Part shown: positions 12,612 to 47,817 of the stretch, piece by piece
Position numbering within the stretch: position 1 is the stretch's first letter
How the letters are laid out: each line of letters starts with the position of its first letter
Notes under the pieces: generated by a model
Databases searched by the model: none
The model's input: the letters and a program-made list of their open reading frames with translations, nothing else
Told to the model about the DNA's origin: nothing
Origin: Cloeon dipterum
Lineage: Eukaryota; Arthropoda; Insecta; Ephemeroptera; Baetidae
Assembly (NCBI RefSeq): GCF_949628265.1
Contig: NC_088786.1
Coordinates: forward strand, 28,355,681 to 28,419,680
Direction of reading: 5' to 3'
DNA length: 64,000 nt
Made by a program: the position numbers and the translations under genes

Positions 12612-12840
12612 GGTCTAATAGCTCAGCGGGCTGGGAGGCGCACCGGCGCCGACTCGCCGCCACTTGCTGGCTTTCGCACCTTTCCAGCGGCTTTAGGGAC
12701 CAATATCTGGCATTTCAATTAAAGACCTCGGTGCGAGGCGGCGAAAAGATAGCCACATCGGGCCCCATGTTATCCGCTCCGTGGTGTTATTGGGACCCGG
12801 TGAGGTCATAGTCCATGGGATGTGCTGAGCAAAGGTTAAA
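12612..12840 (+). repeat. SINE-like repeat with tRNA-like head
   Basis: The left part contains TAGCTCAGCGGGCTGG, a good match to a tRNA box A. It is followed by a body (gcacctttccagc ... cctcggtgcgaggcgg ... ccatgttatccg ... gtgttattgggacccgg) that recurs at 37.2-37.45 kb and, reversed, at 21.3-21.67 kb. There is no convincing box B and no clear flanking duplication, so it is probably an old, damaged copy. Confidence 0.5.
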
Positions 12841-25466: not shown

Positions 25467-25498
25467 ATGAGCGAGGGCGAATATTCGGGCCGCAGCAG
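25467..25498 (+). CDS. Alms1: 5' fragment of ALMS-motif gene, cut off by the giant element
   Basis: ATG AGC GAG GGC GAA TAT TCG GGC CGC AGC AG encodes MSEGEYSGRS and is then interrupted. The last nine bases, CCGCAGCAG (25490-25498), recur at 44950-44958 on the far side of the giant element. Joining 25498 to 44959 keeps the frame open into the ALMS-motif protein. In the present sequence the frame runs into the element and stops after a few codons. That this is the original start of the downstream gene is inference, from the target duplication and the frame match. Confidence 0.6.
25490..25498 (+). repeat. target-site duplication, left copy
   Basis: CCGCAGCAG, identical to 44950-44958. Nine bases is the duplication length reported for foldback and Mutator-like elements. 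Confidence 0.8.
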
Positions 25499-25890
25499 AG
25501 CTTCGTGAAGTTAGCCACTCGTCCCAGCCACTAGAATCCTTTTAGCCACTAGCCACTAGAGGGCGCCCAAATATCGATAGATAACGAACGATACTATCGA
25601 AATCGAACAACCGGTTGTATACAACCGGTGATTCAATTTAAAAACAATGAAATTACTGCAATATTGCTGAAATTAACCAATAAAACAATTCAACAGTATA
25701 AAATGCATCCATTAACGTTAAAATTACTTCCTCTTAGACATTATTTCATATAAAGACGGGAAAAGCCTCTAAAAAGTTGGACCGCTAGTCCAGCCGATTA
25801 TTAAACAAAAATCCTTGGAATTTAATTTTGAAAAAACAATTAGTCCATTATGGTTCTTTTACAATTTAAAACGCGTTTGTATTTCCATTC
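25499..25890 (+). repeat. left terminal inverted repeat of the giant element
   Basis: About 390 bp mirrored by 44949-44793 plus 42617-42400 (the right copy is split by a nested insertion), differing at only a few positions. From outside in it holds several GCCACT repeats; a CTCF-like CCACTAGAGGGCGCCC at 25553-25568; TATCGATA at 25572-25579; and the perfect palindrome ACCGGTTGTATACAACCGGT at 25610-25629. Confidence 0.88.
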
Positions 25891-25899
25891 ATTTAAAGG

Positions 25900-28800
25900 A
25901 TGATACCTGTGATTTTGAAAAAATTTTGTCGTCTGGAATCTCGGAAAACGGTGCCCAGTTAGTTAATTAGAAAAATTTTGGAATTTTATTTTAAAAAAAA
26001 CTGTGATGGGTCCATCAAAATGACCAACGCGATTCTATTTCTTATCATTTGAATTGTCATTCCTGTGAATTTCAATAACTTTTGTCGTCTGGTATTTTCG
26101 GAAAACAGAGCCGAGTTATTTTATAGGAAAAATTTTGGAATTTTATTTTAAAAAAACTGTGAGGGGTCCATCAAAATGACCAACACGATTCTATTTCTTA
26201 TCATTTGAACTGTCATTCCTGTGAATTTGAAAAACTTTTATCGTCTGGTAATCTCAAAATTTAAAATCAATTATTTTTTTATAAAAATTTTGGAATTTTA
26301 TTTTAAAAAAACTGTGATGGGTCCATCAAAATGACCAACGCGATTCTATTTCTTATCATTTGAACTGTCATTCCTGTGAATTTGAAAAACTTTTATCGTC
26401 TGGTAATCTCAAAATTTAAAATCAATTATTTTTTTATAAAAATTTTGGAATTTTATTTTAAAAAAACTGTGATGGGTCCATCAAAATGACCAACGCGATT
26501 CTATTTCTTATCATTTGAACTGTCATTCCTGTGAATTTGAAAAACTTTTATCGTCTAGTATTTTCGGAAAACAGAGCCGAGTTATTTTATAGGAAAAATT
26601 TTGGAATTTTATTTTAAAAAAACTGTGATGGGTCCATCAAAATGGCCAACGCGATTCTATTTCTTATCATTTGAACTGTCATTCCAGTGAATTTGAAAAA
26701 CTTTTATCGTCTGGTAATCTCAAAATTTAAAATCAATTATTTTTTTTAAAAAATTTTGGAATTTTATTTTAAAAAAACTGTGATGGGTCCATCAAAATGA
26801 CCAACGCGATTCTATTTCTTATTATTTGAACTGTCATTCCTGTGATTTTAAAAAACTTTTGTCGTCTGGTACTTTCAGGAAACAGGGCAGTGTTAATTAG
26901 TAGGAAAAATTTTGGAATTTTATTTAAAAAAAAACTGTGATGGGTCCATCAAAATGACCAACGCGATTCTATTTCTTATCATTTGAACTGTCATTCCTGT
27001 GAATTTGAAAAACTTTTATCGTCTGGTAATCTCAAAATTTAAAATCAATTATTTTTTTTAAAAATTTTGGAATTTTATTTTAAAAAAACTGTGATGGGTC
27101 CATCAAAATGACCAACGCGATTCTATTTCTTATCATTTGAAGTGTCATTCCTGTGAATTTAAAAATCTTTTGTCGTCTGGTACTTTCGGGAAACAGAGCA
27201 GTGTTAATTAGTAGGAAAAATTTTGGAATTTTATTTTAAAAAAAACTGTGATGGGTCCATCAAAATGGCCAACGCGATTCTATTTCTTATCATTTGAATT
27301 GTCATTCCTGTGAATTTCAATAACTTTTGTCGTCTGGTATTTTCGGAAAACAGAGCCGAGTTATTTTATAGGAAAAATTTTGGAATTTTATTTTAAAAAA
27401 ACTGTGATGGGTCCATCAAAATGACCAACGCGATTCTATTTCTTATCATTTGAACTGTCATTCCTGTGAATTTGAAAAACTTTTATCGTCTAGTATTTTC
27501 GGAAAACAGAGTCGAGTTATTTTATAGGAAAAATTTTGGAATTTTATTTTAAAAAAACTGTGATGGGTCCATCAAAATGGCCAATGCGATTCTATTTCTT
27601 ATCATTCGAACTGTCATTCCAGTGAATTTGAAAAACGTTTATCGTCTGGTAATCTCAAAATTTAAAATCAATTCTTTTTTTTTAAATTTTGGAATTATAT
27701 TTTAAAAAAACTGTGATGGGTCCATCAAAATGGCCAACGCGATTCTATTTCTTATCATTTGAACTGTCATTCCTGTGAATTTAAAAAACTTTTATCGTCT
27801 GGTAATCTCAAAATTTAAAATCAATTATTTTTTTTAAAAAATTTTGGAATTTTATTTTAAAAAAACTGTGATGGGTCCATCAAAATGACCAACGCGATTC
27901 TATTTCTTATCATTTGAAGTGTCATTCCTGTGAATTTAAAAATCTTTTGTCGTCTGGTACTTTCGGGAAACAGAGCAGTGTTAATTAGTAGGAAAAATTT
28001 TGGAATTTTATTTTAAAAAAACTGTGATGGGTCCATCAAAATGACCAACGCGATTCTATTTCCTATTATTTGAACTGTCATTCCTGTGATTTTAAAAAAC
28101 TTTTGTCGTCTGGTACTTTCGGGAAACAGAGCAGTGTTAATTAGTAGGAAAAATTTTGGAATTTTATTTTAAAAAAACTGTGAGGGGTCCATCAAAATGA
28201 CCAACACGATTCTATTTCTTATCATTTGAACTGTCATTCCTGTGAATTTGAAAAACTTTTATCGTCTGGTAATCTCAAAATTTAAAATCAATTATTTTTT
28301 TATAAAAATTTTGGAATTTTATTTTAAAAAAACTGTGATGGGTCCATCAAAATGACCAACGCGATTCTATTTCTTATCATTTGAACTGTCATTCCTGTGA
28401 ATTTGAAAAACTTTTATCGTCTGGTAATCTCAAAATTTAAAATCAATTATTTTTTTATAAAAATTTTGGAATTTTATTTTAAAAAAACTGTGATGGGTCC
28501 ATCAAAATGACCAACGCGATTCTATTTCTTATCATTTGAACTGTCATTCCTGTGAATTTGAAAAACTTTTATCGTCTAGTATTTTCGGAAAACAGAGCCG
28601 AGTTATTTTATAGGAAAAATTTTGGAATTTTATTTTAAAAAAACTGTGATGGGTCCATCAAAATGGCCAACGCGATTCTATTTCTTATCATTTGAACTGT
28701 CATTCCAGTGAATTTGAAAAACTTTTATCGTCTGGTAATCTCAAAATTTAAAATCAATTATTTTTTTTAAAAAATTTTGGAATTTTATTTTAAAAAAACT

Positions 28801-31800
28801 GTGATGGGTCCATCAAAATGACCAACGCGATTCTATTTCTTATCATTTGAACTGTCATTCCTGTGAATTTGAAAAACTTTTATCTTCTGGTAATCTCAAA
28901 ATTTAAAATCAATTATTTTTTTTAAAAAATTTTGGAATTTTATTTTAAAAAAACTGTGATTGGTCCATCAAAATGACCAACGCGATTCTATTTCTTATCA
29001 TTTGAACTGTCATTCCTGTGAATTTGAAAAACTTTTATCTTCTGGTAATCTCAAAATTTAAAATCAATTATTTTTTTTAAAAAATTTTGGAATTTTATTT
29101 TAAAAAAACTGTGATGGGTCCATCAAAATGACCAACGCGATTCTTTTTCTTATCATTTGAACTGTCATTCCTGTGAATTTGAAAAACTTTTATCTTCTGG
29201 TAATCTCAAAATTTAAAATCAATTATTTTTTTTAAAAAATTTTGGAATTTTATTTTAAAAAAACTGTGATGGGTCCATCAAAATGACCAACGCGATTCTT
29301 TTTCTTATCATTTGAACTGTCATTCCTGTGAATTTGAAAAACTTTTATCGTCTGGTAATCTCAAAATTTAAAATCAATTATTTTTTTTAAAAAATTTTGG
29401 AATTTTATTTTAAAAAAACTGTGATGGGTCCATCAAAATGACCAACGCGATTCTATTTCTTATCATTTGAACTGTCATTCCTGTGAATTTGAAAAACTTT
29501 TATCGTCTGGTAATCTCAAAATTTAAAATCAATTATTTTTTTTAAAAAATTTTGGAATTTTATTTTAAAAAAACTGTGATGGGTCCATCAAAATGGCCAA
29601 CGCGATTCTATTTCTTATCATTTGAACTGTCATTCCAGTGAATTTGAAAAACTTTTATCGTCTGGTAATCTCAAAATTTAAAATCAATTATTTTTTTTAA
29701 AAAATTTTGGAATTTTATTTTAAAAAAACTGTGATGGGTCCATCAAAATGACCAACGCGATTCTATTTCTTATCATTTGAACTGTCATTCCTGTGAATTT
29801 GAAAAACTTTTATCGTCTAGTATTTTCGGAAAACAGAGCCGAGTTATTTTATAGGAAAAATTTTGGAATTTTATTTTAAAAAAACTGTGATGGGTCCATC
29901 AAAATGGCCAACGCGATTCTATTTCTTATCATTTGAACTGTCATTCCAGTGAATTTGAAAAACTTTTATCGTCTGGTAATCTCAAAATTTAAAATCAATT
30001 ATTTTTTTTAAAAAATTTTGGAATTTTATTTTAAAAAAACTGTGATGGGTCCATCAAAATGACCAACGCGATTCTATTTCTTATTATTTGAACTGTCATT
30101 CCTGTGATTTTAAAAAACTTTTGTCGTCTGGTACTTTCAGGAAACAGGGCAGTGTTAATTAGTAGGAAAAATTTTGGAATTTTATTTAAAAAAAAACTGT
30201 GATGGGTCCATCAAAATGACCAACGCGATTCTATTTCTTATCATTTGAACTGTCATTCCTGTGAATTTGAAAAACTTTTATCGTCTGGTAATCTCAAAAT
30301 TTAAAATCAATTATTTTTTTTAAAAATTTTGGAATTTTATTTTAAAAAAACTGTGATGGGTCCATCAAAATGACCAACGCGATTCTATTTCTTATCATTT
30401 GAAGTGTCATTCCTGTGAATTTAAAAATCTTTTGTCGTCTGGTACTTTCGGGAAACAGAGCAGTGTTAATTAGTAGGAAAAATTTTGGAATTTTATTTTA
30501 AAAAAAACTGTGATGGGTCCATCAAAATGGCCAACGCGATTCTATTTCTTATCATTTGAATTGTCATTCCTGTGAATTTCAATAACTTTTGTCGTCTGGT
30601 ATTTTCGGAAAACAGAGCCGAGTTATTTTATAGGAAAAATTTTGGAATTTTATTTTAAAAAAACTGTGATGGGTCCATCAAAATGACCAACGCGATTCTA
30701 TTTCTTATCATTTGAACTGTCATTCCTGTGAATTTGAAAAACTTTTATCGTCTAGTATTTTCGGAAAACAGAGTCGAGTTATTTTATAGGAAAAATTTTG
30801 GAATTTTATTTTAAAAAAACTGTGATGGGTCCATCAAAATGGCCAATGCGATTCTATTTCTTATCATTCGAACTGTCATTCCAGTGAATTTGAAAAACGT
30901 TTATCGTCTGGTAATCTCAAAATTTAAAATCAATTCTTTTTTTTTAAATTTTGGAATTATATTTTAAAAAAACTGTGATGGGTCCATCAAAATGGCCAAC
31001 GCGATTCTATTTCTTATCATTTGAACTGTCATTCCTGTGAATTTAAAAAACTTTTATCGTCTGGTAATCTCAAAATTTAAAATCAATTATTTTTTTTAAA
31101 AAATTTTGGAATTTTATTTTAAAAAAACTGTGATGGGTCCATCAAAATGACCAACGCGATTCTATTTCTTATCATTTGAAGTGTCATTCCTGTGAATTTA
31201 AAAATCTTTTGTCGTCTGGTACTTTCGGGAAACAGAGCAGTGTTAATTAGTAGGAAAAATTTTGGAATTTTATTTTAAAAAAAACTGTGATGGGTCCATC
31301 AAAATGGCCAACGCGATTCTATTTCTTATCATTTGAATTGTCATTCCTGTGAATTTCAATAACTTTTGTCGTCTGGTATTTTCGGAAAACAGAGCCGAGT
31401 TATTTTATAGGAAAAATTTTGGAATTTTATTTTAAAAAAACTGTGATGGGTCCATCAAAATGACCAACGCGATTCTATTTCTTATCATTTGAACTGTCAT
31501 TCCTGTGAATTTGAAAAACTTTTATCGTCTGGTAATCTCAAAATTTAAAATCAATTATTTTTTTTAAAAAATTTTGGAGTTTTATTTTAAAAAAACTGTG
31601 ATGGGTCCATCAAAATGACCAAAACGATTCTATTTCCTATTATTTGAACTGTCATTCCTGTGATTTTAAAAAACTTTTGTCGTCTGGTACTTTCGGGAAA
31701 CAGAGCAGTGTTAATTAGTAGGAAAAATTTTGGAATTTATTTTAAAAAAAACTGTGATGGGTCCATCAAAATGACCAACGCGATTCTATTTCTTATCATT

Positions 31801-33520
31801 TGAACTGTCATTCCTGTTAATTTGAAAAACTTTTATCGTCTAGTATTTTCGGAAAACAGAGTCGAGTTATTTTATAGAAAAATTTTGGAATTTTATTTTA
31901 AAAAAACTGTGATGGGTCCATCAAAATGGCCAACGCGATTCTATTTCTTATCATTTGAACTGTCATTCCAGTGAATTTGAAAAACTTTTATCGTCTGGTA
32001 ATCTCAAAATTTAAAATCAATTCTTTTTTTTTAAATTTTGGAATTTTATTTTAAAAAAACTGTGATGGGTCCATCAAAATGGCCAACGCGATTCTATTTC
32101 TTATCATTTGAACTGTCATTCCTGTGAATTTAAAAAACTTTTATCGTCTGGTACTTTCGGGAAACAGAGCAGTGTTAATTAGTAGGAAAAATTTTGGAAT
32201 TTTATTTAAAAAAAAACTGTGATGGGTCCATCAAAATGGCCAACGCGATTCTATTTCTTATCATTTGAATTGTCATTCCTGTGAATTTCAATAACTTTTG
32301 TCGTCTGGTACTTTCAGGAAACAGGGCAGTGTTAATTAGTAGGAAAAATTTTGGAATTTTATTTAAAAAAAAACTGTGATGGGTCCATCAAAATGGCCAA
32401 CGCGATTCTATTTCTTATCATTTGAACTGTCATTCCTGTGAATTTAAAAAACTTTTATCGTCTGGTAATCTCAAAATTTAAAATCAATTATTTTTTTTAA
32501 AAAATTTTGGAATTTTATTTTAAAAAAACTGTGATGGGTCCATCAAAATGACCAACGCGATTCTATTTCTTATCATTTGAACTGTCATTCCTGTGAATTT
32601 AAAAAACTTTTATCGTCTGGTAATCTCAAAATTTAAAATCAATTATTTTTTTTTAAAAATTTTGGAATTTTATTTTAAAAAAACTGTGATGGGTCCATCA
32701 AAATGACCAACGCGATTCTATTTCTTATCATTTGAACTGTCATTCCTGTGAATTTAAAAAACTTTTATCGTCTGGTATTTTCGGAAAACAGAGCCGAGTT
32801 ATTTTATAGGAAAAAATTTGGAATTTTATTTTAAAAAACTGTGATGGGTCCATCAAAATGACCAACGCGATTCTATTTCTTATCATTTGAACTGTCATTC
32901 CTGTGAATTTAAAAAACTTTTATCGTCTGGTAATCTCAAAATTTAAAATCAATTATTTTTTTTAAAAAATTTTGGAATTTTATTTTAAAAAAACTGTGAT
33001 GGGTCCATCAAAATGACCAACGCGATTCTATTTCTTATCATTTGAACTGTCATTCCTGTGAATTTAAAAAACTTTTATCGTCTGGTATTTTCGGAAAACA
33101 GAGCCGAGTTATTTTATAGGAAAAAATTTGGAATTTTATTTTAAAAAAACTGTGATGGGTCCATCAAAATGACCAACGCGATTCTATTTCTTATCATTTG
33201 AACTGTCATTCCTGTGAATTTGAAAAACTTTTATCGTCTGGTATTTTCGGAAAACAGAGCCGAGTTAATTAATAGGAAAAATTTTGAAATTTTATTTTAA
33301 AAAAACTGTGAGGGGTCCATCAAAATGACCAACGCGATTCTATTTCTTATCATTTGAACTGTCATTCCTTTGAATTTAAATAACTTTTGTCGTCTGGTTT
33401 TTTCGGAAAACAGAGCCGAGTTAATTAATAGGAAAATTTTTAGAATTTTATTTAAAAAAAAAACTGTGAGAGGTCCATCAAAATTACAGAAGCGATTTTA
33501 TTTCTAATCATTAGAAAGTT
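25900..33520 (+). repeat. satellite array, left arm (~49 monomers of ~155 bp)
   Basis: Head-to-tail copies of a 155-157 bp AT-rich monomer: the anchor tccatcaaaatg recurs at 26011, 26167, 26322, 26477, 26633, 26788 and 26945. About 100 bp (gggtccatcaaaatgaccaa ... gtcattcctgtgaattt) is nearly invariant. The remaining ~50 bp exists in three versions, marked by taatctcaaaatttaaaatc, tattttcggaaaacagagcc or tactttcgggaaacagagca. There is higher-order structure: markers at 26819 and 27583 recur 3262 bp later (about 21 monomers). No coding potential. Confidence 0.95.
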
Positions 33521-34294
33521 GTTTCTGGTGAATGTTTCAAATTCACAGGAAAATAAGAGAATTGGCTGTTAGAGAGCTTCTATTGAAAGAAAATAAGTTC
33601 ATTCCTGCTTCCAAACCTTTTTTGTTATTGTGAATAAAATGAGTGTAAATTTTGTGTTTGATAGGTTCCAACAGGTTAAAGTGGGTGATCACAAGTCAGT
33701 GCCTCCTTAGTTGTTTTGCACATTCCCAAAGTCATTCAACAAAGAGTGTGAGATAGCAGGACTACCTTAAAACCCAAAGTAGCTCTTTTTCATCAACTGC
33801 CCAATCTCTCTGTCTCTACCTATATCTATCTTTTTTACTCTGCTGATGATAATATTTCAAATAAAAAGCACTATATACTTGTCATGGAGGATGAGGAAAG
33901 TTCTTTGGTGCGGATGAATGCGGTTGTTATTGGAGTTTAATTTTTCTTCATTGTTAGGCCCAACCTACCACCTCATCAACAGGGAAATTAGAGACTTTTC
34001 TCAGCATGACCTAGCAGCGGAGCTAACCGCTTAGGTTTCATTATTAAAAAATAGTTTCAGAAACTAATTTGATTTCATTATTAAATTGGAAAATATCTAG
34101 AAAAGAATGTATAATAAATTGTATATAGCGTTTTGCTAAGCTCAGTATACATTATACAGCCTTTTCATTTTGTTTTTGTTGCTTATAAGAATTGCAGAGG
34201 TATTAATATTTTTGATGAAATTTATCATATTTCACTATAGCCCTCGTAGCTACAATTATATTGTTGATGAAAAGAAAAATATAACCCCAAAATA

Positions 34295-36090
34295 GAGGTC
34301 TGAGCGAGCAGCACCAAGCCGAGCCGCCTTTTTTGCTCAAATTTTGAGCCAGCCGCAGCCGCCAGTTTTGGCGAGCCGCGCCAGCCAGTTGGGTACTATT
34401 TTAAAGAACTGCGACTACCATTGCAAAATTCCGCTGTAAAGGTTTTCATGTACCGATTACTTTGCGAAAATTAAATTAAAAATGGATTTCAAGAAATTCC
34501 ATTACAATCTTTAAGTAAAAATAGAATTCTTTTTCGTTTCTTTTTCAACTCGAAATCTCGGTGCAAAAAATACCCTCCGTTGAACTCGTATATACCTTCC
34601 CTAACCAACTAAAGGTTTTAGGGGTGTTTACCCTCCACCTCCACCCCTAAAGTTTCTATGCTGTAACTTCCTCGAAAAAGTAAAACATTCTCCGCCGCTC
34701 TGGATTTTTATAATAATTTGCATCTAATTTAAATTTATTTTTATTTTGGGACGAGGCATAGTGTTGTGGGATACTGGGTTCGAGCCAAAGGGGGGGGGGG
34801 GCACTGTAGCGGTTCCCGCTCACACTCACGTTAACTCGGGTTTGTAACCTTTAGATGTCACTTGTAAATTTACACGACTCATAAATATAGATGGAGAAGA
34901 AAGGGAGCAAATTATATTTTGAAAAAATCAGTCTTGCAGAACAAAGTGGCTCTGGACTGTGCCAGTATCTTTCTCCTGCCAGTGCCCTGATCAAGTGTTT
35001 TTGCGCAACAAATACCTCTCGAGCCGCTGACTCACATCCGCCCCAATCAAAATTGCAGCAATGGGGTTGAAAGGGGATGGGGTAAGCACCCCCTAAACAC
35101 TTTAGCTGCTTAGTGGCGGTCGAGACGAGTCTAACGGGGGGATTTTTTTGCAATTCTAATGGTTAGAACCCGAGATTAGGAGTTTAAAAAACGAAATTTT
35201 CACAATTGCTAGATATTTTTTCGGTTTTTCGATGTCTTTGCACCTCCAAATCTCGAGTTCTAAGCATCACAATTACAAAAACTACCCACTGTTGGACTCG
35301 TCTTCACCTCCTCTGAGTAGCTGATGGGTTTTGGGGTGTTTGCTCTCCACCCCAACGTTTAAATATACAGCTTAAAAGATGCACAGCGAGCGGCGCCAGG
35401 AAACGGTCGTCGCTTTTGATCTAAATTTTAGCGTTGGGGATGAAAGGGGATGGGAGTATGCACCTTCAAAACCTTTCAGCTGCTCTGAAGAGGTCAAGAC
35501 GAGTCTAATGGTTGGTGGTTTTAGAAATTCTGACAGTTAGAACCTGAGATTTGGAAGTACAAATAACCCAAAAAATAAAAAAAACGATTTTTTTTCATTA
35601 TTTGTTGTGGGATTTCTTGAAAACTAATTAGAAACCACTCAAATTTTCAGCTTACTTATTTTGCTGCGGCGAGAATTGTTTTTAATTTAAAAAGAAAACT
35701 GATTTTTTTATTATAGAAATTAATGTGGGTAGGGTGATCCTCTCAGGTGCTTTACCGGTTAAAATGTTTCTGGTTCCATGTGAAAAACCGGAAAAGGACC
35801 GGATCCCAGTTTCCATTTTCGGTTTTCTGTTTTGAGATACGCTCTTTTTGACTGATAGGAAAAATAAAAATAGTTACTTTATATGTGAAACCTAATTATT
35901 ACCATCTTAACAAATAATTTTGGGGAAAATTGTTCGAAAAAAATATAATTCAGAAACATGATTTGAGAGTGACTCAAGCCGCGCCGTGAGCCAGCAGCCG
36001 CCTATATTAGGCGAGCCGCCGCAGCCGCGAGATTTAGGCGGCTAAGCCGGTTTAGCCAACAGCCGACAAAAATTGGGCGGCTCAGACCTC
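34295..36090. mobile_element. 1.8-kb TIR-bounded repeat nested in the core
   Basis: The ends are perfect 11-bp inverted repeats, GAGGTCTGAGC and GCTCAGACCTC, each flanked by TA (34293-34294 and 36091-36092). Both subterminal regions are rich in GCCGCC/GGCGGC motifs. The interior carries several alternating inverted copies of a ~110-bp module with CTCGGGTTCTAA-like and GACTCGTCT-like motifs. No transposase; probably a non-autonomous element with TA duplication. Confidence 0.5.
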
Positions 36091-37189
36091 TACCCCTCTT
36101 CCAAATTAGCGCTGAATTAATTTGATTTAATTGTAGTCTAGAGTGAAAAAGTTAACAAAATTTCCCGCAAAATCCTTTAACACACATACAGATTGGGTCC
36201 TAAAAATCATGTACAGTTAAAAAATTACATAGGCAGCACTGCAAATTTTCGAAAAAATCGGCCTCAAACTTAGCATTGTTTTAAATGGAGAATTTTCAAC
36301 AGAATTGTGTAATCGTGATTTTTTTCTAAAATTCCGCATTTCCCCAAAAAAAGACTGGCTGACCGATAGATCTCGATGAGAGGATTCCAAATCATGTGAG
36401 AAAACATAGTGTAGCACTGTAAATTTTGGAGAAAATTGGCAAAAACAATTAATCTGATTGGTCAGCGCCCAGCGCTGCTGGCCAACAGAGGGGGGCGTTT
36501 CATGCTGTCGCTTCTGGTTGCATTACAGAAGGTGGCCGGTGCGCAACTCAATTATCATTTTAATAACGTTTTCATTATCAGAAAAATTTAAAATTTTCGC
36601 ACATGGTAACTAATGAATCTGCCCTTGAAAATCAATAAAAAATTTATTTATATTATACGCAGTTTCTGATAGCCACAAGGGTCTGAGTTTGCCTCTAATA
36701 TCATTTAAATGATTAAAATGAAAAAACATTTTTTCTGAGATGATTCTTGAATAAATTGACTTAATTTTGGGTATTTTGATTTTTCCCAAAACAAATTTCA
36801 AAAGTTATTGAACGGCCAGCTGAAATTTTCAGAATGAATTTTTTCGAAAATAGAAAATTTGAAAAAAAAATTTTATGAGTGGGAAAAAACTGGAAATTTA
36901 ATCAGCTTTCTGATATAGGCAGTATTTAACGCTACTATGAACTGGTGAATTTTAATGAAGCCAAACAGAGACCCCTTTTGAAAATCTGCAATTTTTGAAA
37001 AAATAAAAAATTTATTTCAATAAGCCATTGATTTTGAGAGAATAAACCAGCCCGTTGGCTCGCATTGTTAAGCCACTCTCAGGAGTGTCAAAGCAATGTG
37101 AGGTATTTGAGCAGTTTGGAGATCTAATACTGGCTACCCAATGTCAGAAATGGCAAAAAGTGGTTAGTTTAGTGACTCGAATTGCTCAA

Positions 37190-37452
37190 ATTGCTCAACG
37201 GGCTGGTTTGCACCTTTCCAGCATGCGTGATTTGGCTTCACGGGACGAATGTCTAGCGTTTCAATGCAGTCCTCGGTGCGGAGGCAAGCGGCCCTTGAGT
37301 GGGCTGGGTCCCTGTGCGGCCTGGTGCGCCCATGTTATCCGTTCGCGGTGTTATTGGGACCCGGGTTTCAGCATTCGTGCTAGTGCAGTGCGCGCCCTTC
37401 CCGGTCCTCCGGTCCTCGGACAGGGATAAAATGAGCAAAAAAAAAAAAAATA
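37190..37452 (+). repeat. SINE-like copy inside the giant element
   Basis: From gcacctttccagcatgcgtg (37210) to gtcctcggacagggataaaa and an A-rich tail (ending about 37452), it closely matches the body of the 5S-headed SINE at 21.3-21.67 kb. Its 5' end (gctcaacgggctggtttgc) resembles the tRNA-like head of the 12.6-kb copy rather than a 5S head. Confidence 0.7.
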
Positions 37453-39369
37453 AGACTCAAAAGCAAATATTTTTCATGTTCTCACTATTAAACTTTCATA
37501 ATTTTTCTCACCCCGGAAGCAATTAATTTCCTATGCTAAACATAGAGGGCGTTACCAGTAAAATTCGAAAAATTGGATTTTGGGGCACTTTTGGTCAGAA
37601 GTACATGGAAGAAATAGGTCGGTTAGGCTTAACTTTACATGAAATTTTAATTTTTTTTTAAATAAAAAATCACTGATTCCACTTTAAGAGATAGTGCACA
37701 GTATACGATTGCTGCTTATGCTGATATTGACTGCTTATATATGTTACATTGAGCAAAATTGTCCACCTAAACTTTGGATCGTATAACCCTCTGTTATTAA
37801 AATAAAACGATTAATGATTGTAAAATCAGCATATACTTATTATATGGCTAAATTATACAGTACGTAATTTGCATTGGAAACGGTGCTGAAAGAGCTTTAG
37901 GAACACGAGGTGTTTATTATTCTACGCCTTATTGTTGGCGGCAATGGCCCGTGTCTTGTCTTGACCGATAGATTTCAGTTTTGACCTGCGTCCAGATCTA
38001 CAAAATAGGAAAGTTGAATTATTACGAATTATGGTCTCTGTTTACTGCTTTTAATCTAATGCTTTCTTAAAATGTGTTTAAATTTTTGATGCCAAGGCCA
38101 CAAAGGGGCTCAGAATGGAGTCAATGCCGTCGCTATGAATGAATATTTATTGTCAAGTACATCACATGCGGTTGTGTGCAAAATTCTCATAAGTTCAAAG
38201 CAGCGTGTGTATTGAGTGGCACTTTATAGCATAAAATTCCTTCAGCTGCAATGCTTAGATAACAAGCCAGGACTATTTTAGCAATCATATTGATTATATG
38301 TGAATCCAGTTAACAGATTCAATTTAAAGTTGAGCCTCTATTCTGAAATTATAGCAAAATCAGCAACAATACACTGACTTTCCTCACTATTTTTTGACGT
38401 ACATGTACCAAGCGTACCTTATTTCAGACTCAAGACGCATTTTGACAGATCTAGTCAGGCCCGGAATGGTAATCAGGCGCACCGGGCGAAACCCCGGTGG
38501 GCCGCGGCCCAAGTAGGCCATCCGGGCCGCCCAATTTTTCCAAGACTTGACTGTCTAGCGGCATGCGTTTGTGACTGTCGCGGCCAATATTTTTTGAGTG
38601 GCTTTTCTGTGTTGGGACTGGGGCTGGAGGCAACGCAAGTTCGTATTATTCAAATATTTGTTTTGGCTAAAATAATTTCAAAATCAAAGGACAAATCATT
38701 AAAAAAAAGTAAAAGTTTCTACATCGATCGTTAATGGGCTTAATGCATATATATCAACTGCTTTGGTCGTTCAGCCCGCTCCTCATTAAATTTATTTTAT
38801 CTTATTTCTGTTGGGAAAGGAGCAAACGGGAAAAACAATGCAATCAAATCTTTGATTTTTTTCGTCTTTCCATTTCCATACAGGAAAAGAATTTAAACTG
38901 AGAGCTTGATCAGGTACTAGGACCGAATCTGCAGCCCCCACTTCGAGAGTGAAAAATTCGATTTGCGTGTTTGGAACTAGAGGAAACAATTGAATGCATT
39001 ATTTTGGACTCAATTTTATTAGATTGGGATGAGAATTAGCCAACAAACGGCCCGAGGAGCTGCAGCTTCTTTTTTCCATTTTCGAAATATTGACCGGCGG
39101 CTGGCGTGCCTGGTGAGCTAACAGCACCAAAGCGGCTAGCCAAGATTTTGTGAGTCTGGCTGATGAGAGTGCTCTATAGTAGAGTGCCCATCAGGACAGG
39201 GAAATTTTCGGTTTCCCGGGAATTCCAGAACAACAGTGGAACAATAGAAAAACTCCGATATAACTAATGAACCAATGTCATGGAGAATACGCATACTTTT
39301 TATGACACCTCCAGGTTTTTTTACTATAGAATTCCAATAATTTTAAAATTTTTTAACTCGATACTGTTT

Positions 39370-42300
39370 ATTTCAAACCTAGACGAAAAATGTTTTTCAA
39401 ATTCACAGGAATGATAGACCGCATGATTAGAAATAGAATCGCGTTGGTCATTTTGATGGACCCCTCACAGTTTTTTTAAAATAAAATTCCAAAATTTTTC
39501 CTAATAATTAACTCGGCTCTGTTTTCCGAAAGTACCAGACGACAAAAGTTATTTAAATTCACAGGAATGACAGTTCAAATGATTGGAAATAGAATCGCGT
39601 TGGTCATTTTGATGGACCAATCACAGTTTTTTTATAATAAAATTCCAAAATTTTTTAAAAAAAATAATTGATTTTAAATTTTGAGATTACCAGACGATAA
39701 AAGTTTTTCAAATTCACAGGAATGACAGTTCAAATGATAAGAAATAGAATCGCGTTGGTCATTTTGATGGACCCATCACAGTTTTTTTAAAATAAAATTC
39801 CAAATTTTTTTAAAAAAAATAATTGATTTTAAATTTTGAGATTACCAGACGATAAAAGTTTTTCAAATTCACAGGAATGACAGTTCAAATGATAAGAAAT
39901 AGAATCGCGTTGGTCATTTTGATGGACCCATCACAGTTTTTTTAAAATAAAATTCCAAAATTTTTTAAAAAAAATAATTGATTTTAAATTTTGAGATTAC
40001 CAGACGATAAAAGTTTTTCAAATTCACAGGAATGACAGTTCAAATGATAAGAAATAGAATCGCGTAGGTCATTTTGATGGACCCATCACAGTTTTTTTAA
40101 AATAAAATTCCAAAATTTTTCCTATTAATTAACTCGGCTCTGTTTTCCGAAAATACCAGACGATAAAAGTTTTTCAATTTCACAGGAATGACAGTTCAAA
40201 TGATAAGAAATAGAATCACGTTGGTCATTTTGATGGACCCATCACAGTTTTTTTAAAATAAAATTCCAAAATTTTGCCTATAAAATAACTCGGCTCCATT
40301 TTCCGAAAATACCAGACGACAAAAGTTTTTCAAATTCACAGGAATGACAGTTCAAATGATAAGAAATAGAATCGCGTTGGTCATTTTGATGGACCCATCA
40401 CAGTTTTTTTAAAATAAAATTCCAAAATTTTTTAAAAAAAATAATTGATTTTAAATTTTGAGATTACCAGACGATAAAAGTTTTTCAAATTCACAGGAAT
40501 GACAGTTCAAATGATAAGAAATAGAATCGCGTAGGTCATTTTGATGGACCCATCACAGTTTTTTTAAAAAAAAATTCCAAAATTTTTCCTATTAATTAAC
40601 TCGGCTCTGTTTTCCGAAAATACCAGACGATAAAAGTTTTTCAATTTCACAGGAATGACAGTTCAAATGATAAGAAATAGAATCACGTTGGTCATTTTGA
40701 TGGACCCATCACAGTTTTTTTAAAATAAAATTCCAAAATTTTGCCTATAAAATAACTCGGCTCCATTTTCCGAAAATACCAGACGACAAAAGTTTTTCAA
40801 ATTCACAGGAATGACAGTTCAAATGATAAGAAATAGAATCGCGTTGGTCATTTTGATGGACCCATCACAGTTTTTTTAAAATAAAATTCCAAAATTTTTT
40901 AAAAAAAATAATTGATTTTAAATTTTGAGATTACCAGACGATAAAAGTTTTTCAAATTCACAGGAATGACAGTTCAAATGATAAGAAATAGAATCGCGTT
41001 GGTCATTTTGATGGACCCATCACAGTTTTTTTAAAATAAAATTCCAAAATTTTTTAAAAAAAATAATTGATTTTAAATTTTGAGATTACCAGACGATAAA
41101 AGTTTTTCAAATTCACAGGAATGACAGTTCAAATGATAAGAAAAAGAATCGCGTTGGTCATTTTGATGGACCCATCACAGTTTTTTTAAAATAAAATTCC
41201 AAAATTTTTTAAAAAAAATAATTGATTTTAAATTTTGAGATTACCAGAAGATAAAAGTTTTTCAAATTCACAGGAATGACAGTTCAAATGATAAGAAAAA
41301 GAATCGCGTTGGTCATTTTGATGGACCCATCACAGTTTTTTTAAAATAAAATTCCAAAATTTTTTAAAAAAAATAATTGATTTTAAATTTTGAGATTACC
41401 AGAAGATAAAAGTTTTTCAAATTCACAGGAATGACAGTTCAAATGATAAGAAATAGAATCGCGTTGGTCATTTTGATGGACCAATCACAGTTTTTTTAAA
41501 ATAAAATTCCAAAATTTTTTAAAAAAAATAATTGATTTTAAATTTTGAGATTACCAGACGATAAAAGTTTTTCAAATTCACAGGAATGACAGTTCAAATG
41601 ATAAGAAATAGAATCGCGTTGGTCATTTTGATGGACCCATCACAGTTTTTTTAAAATAAAATTCCAAAATTTTTTCTATTAATTAACTCGGCTCTGTTTT
41701 CCGAAAATACCAGACGATAAAAGTTTTTCAAATTCACAGGAATGACAGTTCAAATGATAAGAAATAGAATCGCGTTGGTCATTTTGATGGACCCATCACA
41801 GTTTTTTTAAAATAAAATTCCAAAATTTTTCCTATAAAATAACTCGGCTCTGTTTTCCGAAAATACCAGACGACAAAAGTTATTGAAATTCACAGGAATG
41901 ACAGTTCAAATGATAAGAAATAGAATCGCGTTGGTCATTTTGATGGACCCATCACAGTTTTTTTAAAATAAAATTCCAAAATTTTTCCTACTAATTAACA
42001 CTGCCCTGTTTCCTGAAAGTACCAGACGACAAAAGTTTTTTAAAATCACAGGAATGACAGTTCAAATAATAAGAAATAGAATCGCGTTGGTCATTTTGAT
42101 GGACCCATCACAGTTTTTTTAAAATAAAATTCCAAAATTTTTCCTATAAAATAACTCGGCTCTGTTTTCCGAAAATACCAGACGACAAAAGTTATTGAAA
42201 TTCACAGGAATGACAATTCAAATGATAAGAAATAGAATCGCGTTGGCCATTTTGATAGGCCCATCACAGTTTTTTTAAAAATAAAATTCCAAAATTTTTC

Positions 42301-42400
42301 TAATTAACTAACTGGGCACTGTTTTCCGAGATTACCAGACGACAAAAGTTTTTCAAAATCACAGGTATCATCTTTCAAATGAATGGAAATACAAACGCGT
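39370..42400 (-). repeat. satellite array, right arm (~19 monomers of ~155 bp)
   Basis: Same monomer as 25.9-33.5 kb in reverse complement, with the same variable-cassette types. A three-monomer block is duplicated: the marker gcctataaaataactcggct at about 40276 recurs at about 40743, 467 bp later. The array is less than half the length of the left arm. Confidence 0.95.
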
Positions 42401-42617
42401 TTTAAATTGTAAAAGAACCATAATGGACTAATTGTTTTTTCAAAATTAAATTCCAAGGATTTTTGTTTAATAATCGGCTGGACTAGCGGTCCAACTTTTT
42501 AGAGGCTTTTCCCGTCTTTATATGAAATAATGTCTAAGAGGAAGTAATTTTAACGTTAATGGATGCATTTTATACTGTTGAATTGTTTTATTGGTTAATA
42601 TCAGCGATATTGCAGTA

Positions 42618-44792
42618 CATCGTTACGCGTCCGGAAAAAAAGTAAATATGCATTGTGCGTCAGCGAACAAATGGTACATATGCATTCTGCGTCAGCGAAC
42701 AAAAGGTAAACCTGCACTTTTCACGATTTTACAGGAGGAGGTTTTATTTGTTTGCTGACATTACCTAAAACTAACCGGTTTAACGACTCCAGACATTAAA
42801 TTTGAGACTGAATGCCGCTCATTTCAAAAAATGATTCGACTTGATACATGCAACAGAAACGGAGAAATGGCACATTTCTCTGCCAGCATGCACGAGAGCC
42901 AGCAAATCAATCGATCAAATTTCAAAATTAAAATAGAAAGCGAAGCTGATAAACCGATTTCCACGACACAGAACTAATGCCAACCGATTTAACTACATAA
43001 TACGACCGGTATTTAATGAATTAAAAAACCAATATAAGAAAGAAATCTGTCGATTTTTGACTTGAGCAAAAAATACGAGACTCTGGAACGCGTCTTTTTT
43101 CGTCTCTTAAATTAAAATAGCGATTGCAATTTGAGGTTGCGGCATCTGTTGACAATAAATTATCAAAAATAAATTGCAAAGTTTTCGTGCATTATCCATG
43201 AAGCACTCTGATAAATTGTGTCGCAACTAACCTCTTTTATCAAATAAAACGCATCACCAAATCTCGGGTTTGAGCCATCAGAATTGCAAAAATTGAACAC
43301 CGTTTGGCTCGTCTCAACCTCCCCTAGACAGCCAACGGGTTTTGGGGGTGATCACCTACCCCACCTACCCCACCAACCCCAATTTCTGCTTTTTTTCTAC
43401 CTCTGGAACTTTGTGCCACCCGAATCTCGGGTTTTAGTGGTCCTATTTACAAAAAATACGTACTGTTTGACTAGTCTTTGAATGAACTAAGTAACTGAAT
43501 TGGTTTGAAGAGGGCAATTACTCGTCAACGTCGTTCCAAGGTGTTGAAACGGACAAAAAATGCTAAATTTCCCGTTATTGAGGGGGTTAAAAGGGGGTTG
43601 GGGGTTGGTTGGTCCCATACCCCTTTATTGCACTTGGGTACGTCAAGACGAGTCTAACGGTATGCGGTTTTTCAAAATCAGATGATTAGAAGTTGAGATT
43701 TGGGCGATCATCGAGCATATTATTGCATCGCGTCTTGATAAAAAAAAGCTTTGTGCACCCGAATCTCGGGTTGTGGTGGTCCTATTTACGAAAAATATGT
43801 ACCGTTTGACTAGTTTTTAAGTGAACTAAGTAACTGAATGGGTTTAAAGAGGGCAATTACTCGTCAACGTCGTGCCAATGTGTTGAAACAGACGAAAAAA
43901 TGCTAAATTTCCCGTTATTGAGGGGGTTAAATGGGGGTTGGGGGTTAGTGGGTCTCGTACCCCTTTAGTGCACTTTGGGACGTCGAGACGAGTCTAACGG
44001 TATGCGGTTTTTCAAAATCAGATGATTAGAAGTTGAGATTTAGTCGATCATCGTTTTTTAACAACCTCGAAAAACAAGGTTTTTCAAAATTTCCATTTTT
44101 TTTTAATAAAACGAAGAAAAACTCCAATCCAAATTTTAATGTTTTTAACTAAACTTTCTGTACTCTACAAAATGGCTATGGAAAAAATAAAAAATTTCAG
44201 TATATTGAATTTCAAATTCGAGTTTTAAATAAAAAATCAATTTTATGACCTTGACCTTTGACCTACCACTTTGAGGTCAATATAAAAGTTGTTTGCCATG
44301 TTGAGACGAGTTAAACGGTTTTTTAATTTTTGTTCTAGAACCATCCTGAGCAAAGTTACAAAGTACTCAAAATTCCCAGATTTTGACTTTCGAACGCCCG
44401 CAAAACCCGCAAAAATTAGAAATTCGGAGTTTTTTCAACTATTTTCTCGGTCAATTAAGGCAAAGTTTGCGCAAAAAAATTTTCTTCAAAGTCCATTGAT
44501 CCCTGGACAAAAATTTGTTGATTTTCACCTTTTTCACAGATTTTTGCAAATGACATCTTTTGTCAGGCTATAAGCTAAATTTAAATTTTCCTTTATTTGC
44601 ATATAGATGTCACTAGTGATGAAAAAATGAGTCACCCCATGTATTTTGACCCGAATTTTTCATTGGTGGAATAAAATCGTTTTGCGTCAAAAGTGCATAT
44701 TTACCATTTTCACGATTTACCTTTTGACAGATGTACCATTTGTCCGCTGACGCACAATGCATATTTACTTTTTTTCCGGACGCGTAACGACA
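42618..44792. mobile_element. 2.2-kb TIR element nested in the right terminal repeat
   Basis: Flanked by TA on both sides (42616-42617 and 44793-44794). The ends are inverted repeats of at least 60 bp, sharing TCGTTACGCGTCCGGAAAAA and then subterminal TGCGTCAGCG repeats; only the outermost two bases differ (CA versus TG). The left arm of the giant element shows the uninterrupted site (GCAG-TA-ATTTC in reverse complement), which proves insertion. The interior holds a ~340-bp direct duplication (about 43420-43700 and 43760-44050) and no coding frame. Non-autonomous; TA duplication suggests Tc1/mariner-type mobilisation. Confidence 0.8.
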
Positions 44793-44949
44793 TAATTTCA
44801 TTGTTTTTAAATTGAATCACCGGTTGTATACAACCGGTTGTTTGATTTCGATAGTATCATTCGTTATCTATCGATATTTGGGCGCCCTCTAGTGGCCAGT
44901 GGCTAAAAGGATTCTAGTGGCTGGGACGAGTGGCTAACTTCACACAGCT
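44793..44949 (-). repeat. right terminal inverted repeat, outer part
   Basis: Mirror of 25499-25655. It carries the same motifs in reverse: palindrome 44819-44838, TATCGATA 44869-44876 and the CTCF-like motif on the minus strand at 44880-44895. The inner part continues at 42617-42400 beyond the nested insertion. Confidence 0.88.
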
Positions 44950-44958
44950 CCGCAGCAG
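44950..44958 (+). repeat. target-site duplication, right copy
   Basis: CCGCAGCAG directly after the terminal AGCT of the element, identical to 25490-25498. Confidence 0.8.
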
Positions 44959-47817
44959 CGGCTTGAAACGACCAGATTTGGAGGGCAATCGTCCGACAGT
45001 GTCTCCTTCTGCTTCGGTGTCGAGCGCGGCGTCGACGCGCCCTCTCGAATGGGATTCGGGGGCCGACGTCGGCTACCTGCTGCAGAATGAGGAGCGGCAG
45101 TTGGCTGACGCTATCAAGAAACTCGGCATTGGCCTCGGCGGCAACAACAAGGGAATCAAGAAGAACACTGATTTGACTCGAGTTCGATTAGAAGAGCATG
45201 ACATAAGGGCAAATAATGTAACTAATATTTTAGATCTGAGATACCTGACTGATTAAAAAACTATTGATTCAGATTTATTAACCTCATGAAAATTTTATAC
45301 CAGACATAATATTATACTAATGAACAATTTTACTCAAAGGAAAGCTTGTTGAGTGGAGGTCAAAAAGCAACAGTAGACAGTTTCGTGGAAGAGGGTCTTT
45401 TGGGGGCTGGATGCGTGCCTTTGATGGAGTCGACGCCAAAATTAGCAGGGCTGCAGGCGTCCAAGGGGGCGGCGGAAGGCGGCAGCCGCACGACGCTGGC
45501 CAAAACAGCCTCCTCGTCATCGCTGGCCACGGTGGTGTCCAAGAATGGCCAGCTTGTAGCTGACAAGAAAGGAGCCGAGCTCATCTCAGATCTAACCAAA
45601 GGCCTACACCTGGTTAAATCCCTCATTGCCGAGACCAGGGGAGACAAAGTACGTCCAGTCTTGAGTCTTGCCTGGGCATTTATTTTTAAACTTAAATTTA
45701 TTCATGATTGCAGGAGAAGCAGAGCAAGCTTCTAGCGCATGTGGTGAAGCAGTTGAAGACCGTGGAAGAGGGTCGCCAGCCCCACAGCCGCAGACAAAGG
45801 TTACGAAAACCCGCGCAGGAAGCGCAATCATCCAGTTCAACGCATGCAGAATCTTCAAGCAACTCCAGCAACATCGTACAACAGTTAAAGAATTCATGTA
45901 AATAATGACGTTCACTTATCCTGTTTTTTTTTTCTGTATAATGAATTGAATGAATTCTACTCTGCTGAAATTTATAAATGTTAGCTATTCCAAATATTTT
46001 TATGAAGGCTGCTTGAAAAAGACGTTGACATATCTATAAAACAAATAATAGTGTTATGTGCTGGAACACTCCTTGCCTCCTCCCACATATCCAGGATTTT
46101 TTTTGACTCAATAGGACACATGCTTATCATAGCAATGAAAACTCTCAGTGCCGAGGCAGTGCTGCTTTGCTTTAGACCGTTTATGTGTTTTCAAACCTAC
46201 CCTGCAATGCGCGCAGTGACTAATAATATATAAGATCATTAAACTAGAGATATTTATAACATAGTTATTATGGCAGTGCTTTCGCACTGCAAAAGAGCAC
46301 GGCCTGACTAGACAATCTCAGTTCAGCCAATTTTATATTCCTGCAGAGATAAGCTATTACAAAAAAATTCTGAAACAAAAAATAATGTATCATTCATTTT
46401 TGCAGTTAGAACTCGTCAGCAGGTGGGCGCTAGTGGAGATTCTTCAGGCAGCTTATTGACCCTGGAGTCTGCGCAAGAGGAGGACGCATGCCAGCGTTTG
46501 CTCTCAAGCATTTCCAGCCCCGAGGAGAACGGACTGTTAGAATGGGCAAATAGCCAAGAGCGTCTCGCCCTCTTCCCTCCAGATCCCAAACTGAACGAAG
46601 CCATTGGTATCTTTCCCTTTTGATTTACCACCTCCAGGGTAACCAATGTTGTAATTCTGACAGAACTGGCCGACGGCCCATTTGCTACCTTCCTGCAGGA
46701 ATTCATTGACTACGAGTGCCGGCGTCAAGCTTGCTGGCGCAGTGATCTGCTCAACCTCATATCCAGGAGGGCAGCGTAAGTGACTTTCTAGGTTACATGA
46801 CCCATGCACAGATTTATTAATTTTCAGTTTGCTTCGTCAGAAGAATGTCGAAACGAGCAGGAGGGAAAAATCTCTTTCAGTCAGCAGTGCCTCCTCTGTC
46901 AAAGCTGAGACACTTCCTCCTTCCCATCTTTTTCCCCTAAATCTAAACCCAGTTGCTCAAAATTCTCGGGATAAGGAGGAGAAGCAGCCAACCGGCAAGA
47001 TTTTCCAACATATCATAGATCCTAAAACAGCTGCACCTGATCCAAAAAGCTTGACTGGGAATTCCAATAAGGCATCTGCTGACCTAGATGCAATTCTTTC
47101 CACGCCAGGTAAACTGACCTCACGTAAACCCAATGCCAAGAAGCCAGCCAGGGCAGTAATGAAAAAGGATTCTCCTTTGAGAGACGTAGACCTTCCATTG
47201 CAGGTAGAAAAATCCACTTTTTTCATTGAAGTTTTTATTCAATGTCTAATCATTAAAAAAATTAACACTATTTATCCTATTCTAGGAGCACTTGAAAAAG
47301 CGCCGTCCTAACTTTTTGAAGCAGGCAGAACAGAGGCGCAAGTGCCTGGCTTTACTGGGTGAGCGGCGCCTTCAGAGATGTGGCCAGCGACGCCAGGGTC
47401 TGAAGGAGCAGGTGCAACGCTACAGTGGCACTCTGCCAGATCACATTGACCTTGAACCTTTGCCCCCACCGCCATTAGGTAGTTGATTTACACATTTGTA
47501 GCATTCGGCCTAATACACTACACTTATTTGATTGTAGCGGTGAAGCGGCTGTTTACTCAGAAACAATTGAGGCAGCACACTGAGAATTTGTGCCGGAACC
47601 TTGAAGAGACCAGAAAGAAGGAGGAGGAACAAAAGCGTGAAGAGGAGCACAAGATGAACAGAATCATGGCGCAGATTTTCAATAGGGTACAATTTTGAAA
47701 TTTTCTTGACTGCTTAACGTGTCTCTATCCATTTTTCTGCAGAAGCTGCAAAACCGGGTGCTGCATCGCAAAGTAGATCTGTCCAACTCTGTGAGTGTCA
47801 TTACTGCTGGAGACTGA
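44950..47817 (+). CDS. Alms1: ALMS-motif centrosomal/ciliary protein, main part (start displaced by insertion)
   Basis: Exons from the right target duplicate: about 44950-45217, 45340-45648, 45714-45897, 46406-46606, 46664-46775, 46828-47203, 47286-47478, 47538-47686 and 47743-47817. With the 5' fragment at 25467-25498 the frame would be 629 residues. The first donor (AAT|GTAACT) is the least certain. The N-terminal half is Ser/Lys rich. The C-terminal ~140 residues carry the ALMS motif: KRRPNFLKQAEQRRKCLALL, a basic helix, then RLFTQKQLRQHTENLCRNLE, a charged coiled coil, and RIMAQIFNRKLQNRVLHRKV. ALMS-motif proteins (ALMS1, CEP295 family) act at centrioles and basal bodies. This copy is short compared with vertebrate ALMS1. 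No in-frame ATG lies between the element and the first exon's end, so it may be a null or 5'-rewired allele. Confidence 0.75.

Follow-up and report, generated by a model that had tools for sequence, protein, structure and literature searches.

How did the start codon of an ALMS-motif gene in the mayfly Cloeon dipterum come to lie some 19 kb away from the rest of its coding sequence? We addressed this question in a 64-kb window, the whole stretch of DNA analysed around the gene, and in the genome assembly G000 (190.1 Mb in 10 contigs). The features recognized are listed in Table 1.

Position and structure of the element

The gap was occupied by a foldback-like element of 19,451 bp, bounded by perfect 9-bp copies of CCGCAGCAG. 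This 9-mer was found twice on the forward strand of the window and never on the reverse strand, and both copies are the element flanks. In a chance check, identical 9-mers occurred in 5 of 200,000 random pairs drawn from host 9-mers. The first-pass annotation had placed the element at 25467–44990; a large element is present there, but that range takes in flanking coding sequence, the element proper covering 25499–44949. The 9-bp duplication that it had noted was recovered at nine of nine positions. The inverted termini, which it had called nearly perfect, are outer terminal repeats of ~407 bp in inverted orientation, and the left and right repeats differ at 9 of the ~407 aligned positions, two of these being adjacent.

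Table 1 Features of the foldback-like element and of the ALMS-motif gene, in window coordinates.
Feature	Position	Strand	Evidence or remark
First coding exon, start, 32 nt (10 codons + 2 nt)	25467–25498	+	In-frame TAG at 25455; matching residues in P0005
Left copy of the 9-bp target site duplication CCGCAGCAG	25490–25498	+	Sequence, 9-mer count
Foldback-like element, 19,451 bp	25499–44949	.	Inverted AGCT ends in inverted orientation, 9-bp duplication, P0005 implying an empty allele
Left outer terminal inverted repeat, ~407 bp	25499–25905	+	Repeat alignment
Left array, 155-bp units, 48.9 copies	25906–33516	+	Tandem repeat analysis; 1,584-bp exact repeat at 3,262-bp shift
Middle domain without detected coding capacity	33517–39380	.	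Longest stop-to-stop ORF 127 aa; no Pfam match, 4 ORFs
Nested dispersed repeat, self-interrupted near 37021–37437	36159–37689	.	At least 39 other genome copies, 88–92%
Right array, 155-bp units, 19.4 copies, inverted	39381–42401	-	Tandem repeat analysis
Right terminal repeat, inner part	42366–42617	-	98.4% to left repeat
Nested 2.17-kb inverted-repeat element, core ends TCGTTACG	42618–44792	.	Splits right terminal repeat
Right terminal repeat, outer part	44793–44949	-	96.8% to left repeat
Right copy of the 9-bp target site duplication	44950–44958	+	Sequence, 9-mer count
First coding exon, remainder	44959–45217	+	Donor AAT/GTAACT implied by P0005
Remaining ALMS-gene exons	45340–45648, 45714–45897, 46406–46606, 46664–46775	+	Open frame, hand-set; PF15309
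Remaining ALMS-gene exons, continued	46828–47203, 47286–47478, 47538–47686, 47743 to stop (45340–47817 overall)	+	

Inside the terminal repeats, the element had the structure of a foldback transposon: unequal inverted arms built from tandem 155-bp units (48.9 vs 19.4 copies), running in opposite orientation. Units of the left array were on average 90.2% identical to one another, those of the right array 90.5%, and units from different arms 90.4% (48 left and 19 right whole units). Exact repeats stood out from this background. Within the left array, 1,584 bp recurred exactly after 3,262 bp, and the two arms had a stretch of 710 bp exactly in common, in inverted orientation. These exact repeats suggest that the arms were changed by recent tandem duplication and exchange between arms, or that they contain an assembly error.

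The first pass had described the element as transposase-free, in agreement with our searches. None of six element-internal ORFs (from 30 listed between 33000 and 45000; four of the six in the middle domain) had a Pfam match. MULE and PHD proteins compared with the whole element gave a best E of 0.086, while the control locus L033 was recovered at E near 0.

Folded as single-stranded DNA, the left terminal repeat had a z score of -2.62, and 2 of 200 shuffles folded as well. Each terminal repeat carried an exact match to a CTCF core consensus (25553–25566 on the forward strand, 44882–44895 on the reverse), the two facing each other. With up to one mismatch, the window had three matches vs 0.15 expected, the third being at 12657, outside the element. 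Two relatives of the element, on contigs C1 and C2, retain the CTCF-type core with one mismatch (read by eye).

Nested insertions

Two other repeats were nested in the element. The first, in the middle domain, is dispersed through the genome; its copy number was taken from the 40 candidates scored out of 4,319, itself included. A likeness between the middle domain and the C2 relative had been considered as a sign of a common family and was rejected, a separate high-copy repeat explaining it. The second, of 2.17 kb, had at least 11 other copies at 99–100% identity over its first 583 bases, which points to a recent spread of this family. Set against the left arm and the C2 copy, its insertion site fits a TA duplication; the outermost two bases mismatch between its ends. 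These ends read TCGTTACGCGTCCGG.

With other transposons nested inside, the size of 19.45 kb is composite. The very large size stressed in the first-pass annotation is real as a length, but array duplication and nested insertions have added to it.

The interrupted gene and protein P0005

An in-frame TAG (25455–25457) precedes the ATG of the gene, after which the frame is open for 32 nt to the element. Continued into the element, it meets a stop at 25506–25508, giving a 13-residue product if unspliced. A two-codon upstream ORF (ATGCGATGA, 25462–25470) overlaps the start codon. When the flanks were joined at the duplication, a single open frame continued over nine further exon pieces, with 629 codons. 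Exon joins were set by hand; an earlier version of 617 residues used donor 45182 for the first coding exon, which was dropped for donor 45218, as implied by P0005 (see below). The 617-residue version matched the Pfam ALMS_motif (PF15309) with E = 1.9e-16.

The gene is the single clear ALMS-motif gene found in G000. Its protein gave three matches in the assembly, all exons of this locus. A search with the motif recovered the gene above the cut-off, and below it one match on contig C4 (E 0.094, two internal stops).

We searched a protein database with the 617-residue version, scoring the 7,989 candidates with the most words in common. Three proteins came in at E ≤ 0.001: P0005, a Cloeon dipterum protein (94%, full length), P0006, of Neocloeon triangulifer (57%), and P0007, of the pea aphid (42%, covering 22%). 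With the first exon corrected, the ALMS protein and P0005 matched at 605 residues, differed at 23 and had one gap, which places the window in C. dipterum or a closely related lineage. P0005 begins with MSEGEYSGRSSGLKRPDLEG, as predicted for an empty site, and across the insertion junction it reads MSEGEYSGRSSGLKRP, identical to the joined flanks. An intron that removed exactly the element and one duplicate would have GT-AG or GC-AG borders in none of its 10 possible registers. The exact join and the lack of such a register together imply an empty allele: on protein evidence alone, we infer that the genome behind P0005 would carry the empty site. The central claims of the first pass were upheld by this comparison. 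The gene starts at 25467, where P0005 opens with identical residues. Removing the element and one duplicate restores a frame whose residues at the junction are those of P0005, and the element splits the first coding exon, since its ends, the duplication and the frame coincide and P0005 spans the junction.

Over 616 aligned residues, the 23 differences from P0005, polarised with Neocloeon, were 2 window-derived, 4 P0005-derived and 17 unpolarised, and the last 150 alignment columns were identical. This comparison gave no sign of decay in the gene body, which would fit a recent insertion or continued function equally. A 251-residue query from the gene matched four metagenome proteins, among them P0004 (14% of the query at 94%). 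The likeness of P0004 to the start region was dropped as support, its score being reached by 149 of 2000 shuffles, and that of the first 20 residues by 126 of 2000.

Related copies in the genome

The end pattern of the element, with up to three mismatches, occurred at five places in G000: the two ends in the window, and one place each on contigs C1, C2 and C5. The C1 locus (C1:21257332-21258868) is a diverged copy of 1.5 kb that has retained both ends, its inverted 155-like units matching at ~68–80%. The C2 locus (C2:6097012-6097232) has one end of the terminal repeat (88%) together with some two and a half 155-bp units; its second end was not found in ~69 kb. At C5 there was no more than a 35-bp end and two short fragments of the unit. 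Among the best candidates scored (6 of 6), the 155-bp unit was found only in the window and at these three loci. The C1 and C2 loci have both the ends and the repeat units in common with the element, as is typical of foldback-type elements. As telomere patterns, neither (TTAGG)5 nor a tardigrade repeat was found in G000; the clade was read from P0005 and P0006.

The first-pass annotation had named related copies lacking a 9-bp duplication as evidence against its reading, and this was borne out in part. Of the 8–11 bp expected of Mutator-like elements, the window copy has a duplication of 9/9 bp. Near the ends of the C1 copy, the only other one with two ends, there was none of 7–11 bp with up to one mismatch; C2 and C5 are one-ended. 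The C1 copy makes the 9-bp duplication less secure as a mark of the family; the insertion in the window is unaffected.

Potential transposases

A MULE domain was detected at nine loci in G000. The terminal repeat and the 155-bp unit gave no match to the nine MULE regions at E 1e-5, and only short matches (E 0.013 or worse) when four of the regions were retested. Two MULE families were traced to their ends as candidates for the autonomous partner and were rejected, the ends starting with GGGT or GGAAAT, not AGCT. Thus, among the fetched regions of the nine loci, with the ends of two families read, no MULE carrying AGCT ends was found.

The first of these families is represented by an element at C2:35601001-35612626 (L049-L036-L050), with a PF10551 transposase and a PHD-finger ORF (31.5 bits, above the Pfam cut-off of 24). 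Its arms of 2,463 bp are 100% identical and contain tandem repeats of 173 bp and 44 bp. Its GGGT ends (read by eye) are flanked on either side by a 9-bp duplication, AACTAAAAT. A 99.9% copy was observed on C4 (L037), from which it follows that this element has probably been active recently. In the second family (L031), the arms measure at least 2.46 kb, match at 97% and contain 174-bp arrays; one end, read in two copies, is GGGTATAGATATATATAC and GGAAATAGATATATATAC. The PHD match beside its transposase was below the cut-off (22.6 bits). Five near-identical copies of it were present (L031–L035, 99.8–99.9% over long blocks). An ORF adjoining the transposase (L031:1475-2407) matched PHD and peptidase-like Pfam domains, in each case below the cut-off.

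Tandem-repeat arms, once with a 9-bp duplication, thus accompany MULE transposases in this genome, and the element is likely a non-autonomous one of the Mutator/Rehavkus type. The membership in Mutator suggested in the first pass was not confirmed directly, as an AGCT-ended transposase was not found and the MULE ends read differ.

Origin of the insertion

Transposition is supported by the inverted ends, the duplication, the restored frame, P0005, which needs an empty site, and the related copies. We consider it highly probable that the locus arose when a non-autonomous foldback DNA transposon inserted into the first coding exon and duplicated 9 bp. In this scenario, a cut-and-paste element of the foldback type would have entered the exon of the single ALMS-motif gene, most likely mobilised in trans by a Mutator-like transposase, presumably of the Rehavkus/foldback type. 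The arms would then have been altered by tandem duplication and, seemingly, inter-arm exchange, and other transposons lie inside. The element-bearing allele would leave the start codon cut off from the remainder of the protein, barring a new promoter or a splice pattern that bridges the gap. The allele may be silenced or rewired, as the first pass proposed, or spliced.

An origin other than transposition, from inverted repeats arisen by chance or from a rearrangement next to a gene that starts elsewhere, is scarcely conceivable and contradicted by P0005. The only point in its favour is that CAGCAG in coding DNA is of low complexity, against the coincidence of element ends, duplication and frame, the identical residues at the start of P0005 and the relatives elsewhere in the genome. 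An appreciable minority chance goes to a foldback element of another superfamily (P/Galileo-like, hAT or other). No MULE with AGCT ends was found in the regions fetched from the nine MULE loci of G000. P and hAT elements make target duplications of 7–8 bp, whereas the duplication here is 9 bp, outside what is expected of the P superfamily, and two MULE families in G000 have long tandem-repeat arms. Foldback anatomy can nevertheless arise within the P superfamily, as described for Galileo (PMC3573991).

It is unlikely that the gene still works because the element is spliced out as an intron through its ends, in the manner of introners, or supplies a promoter. In-frame donor-acceptor pairs do exist: donor 25505 can be paired with an acceptor before 44956 or before 44959, for a gain of two or three codons. 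CTAAC lies upstream of these acceptors, the one at 44956 is in the 87th percentile among AGs, and introners that add codons are described in PMC9860276. The donor, on the other side, is at the 53rd percentile of the GTs in the window (generic matrix) and scores under seven of the eight scored donors of the gene, the eighth (45182) having since been replaced by 45218. The introner families described in PMC9860276 have median lengths of 30–654 nt, and P0005 is without added codons. The intact gene body is compatible with a working gene, but is equally expected after a recent insertion. Because the donor is weak and P0005 shows an exact join, splicing was set aside as the main reading.

The right terminal repeat contains a branch-point-like CTAAC, acceptor-like AGs and the exact CTCF-type core mirrored in the left repeat. 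It is very unlikely that this repeat is the source of a new first exon or of a splice acceptor, which would turn the 19-kb element into a new 5' intron or a portable boundary of a centriole-type gene, one that would still vary between lineages; the host would then tolerate the insertion because of this exon or acceptor.

The locus offers both an occupied site and, as the protein implies, an empty counterpart for a large foldback element in the start exon of the only clear ALMS-motif gene found in a mayfly genome. Carriers and non-carriers would be directly comparable for centriole or cilium function. The exact recent duplication and the apparent inter-arm exchange bear on the growth of foldback elements and on the ways in which these elements may give rise to satellite arrays.

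Comparison with known systems

In titles and abstract starts of the literature on the Cloeon dipterum genome and its transposable elements, an AGCT-ended family was not described among the matches listed, nor among the best 8 of 311 on foldback elements, Mutator-type transposons or terminal inverted repeats of mayflies. The family may be undescribed, as the first pass proposed. In literature on cryptic species and chromosomal assemblies, Cloeon did not appear among the 10 matches listed. The MULE families read in G000 have other ends than the mayfly element. In Drosophila, FB-NOF has a 9-bp duplication and a minisatellite and is grouped with Rehavkus, and the duplication of Galileo is 7 bp, shorter than the 9 bp here. 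Like the mayfly element, Galileo has long tandem-repeat arms, which expand and contract independently, but it differs in its P-type transposase (as described in PMC3573991).

Foldback families with tandem-repeat arms and 8–10-bp duplications are described from flies, nematodes and mosquitoes, and those published are mostly assigned to Mutator (PMC4079207, PMC3169594, PMC5225508). Tm1, a Mutator/foldback family of root-knot nematodes, resembles the element in its composite tandem-repeat arms, 9-bp duplications and non-autonomous members, but its units are ~14 bp vs 155 bp here, and its transposase-coding member was identified via common repeats, whereas none was found for the mayfly element (PMC3169594). 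Tetris of Drosophila virilis, as described in PMC4079207, is alike in having an outer TIR domain, long-unit tandem repeats in both arms, a non-coding middle (of variable size in Tetris), few complete copies and an autonomous partner that was not found; its duplications are of 8–10 bp. The likeness is one of description, with a unit of ~220 bp in Tetris vs 155 bp. Unlike Tetris, the mayfly element has arms of ~8.0 and 3.4 kb (nested insertion excluded) and a duplication at one copy only (PMC4079207). Rehavkus is defined by a 9-bp duplication, a PHD finger and a minisatellite (PMC6446971, Table 1). Its DDE transposase and PHD finger were not detected in the mayfly element, which shares with it the 9-bp duplication and the minisatellite, and the MULE+PHD elements of G000 fit the description of Rehavkus in that source (PMC6446971).
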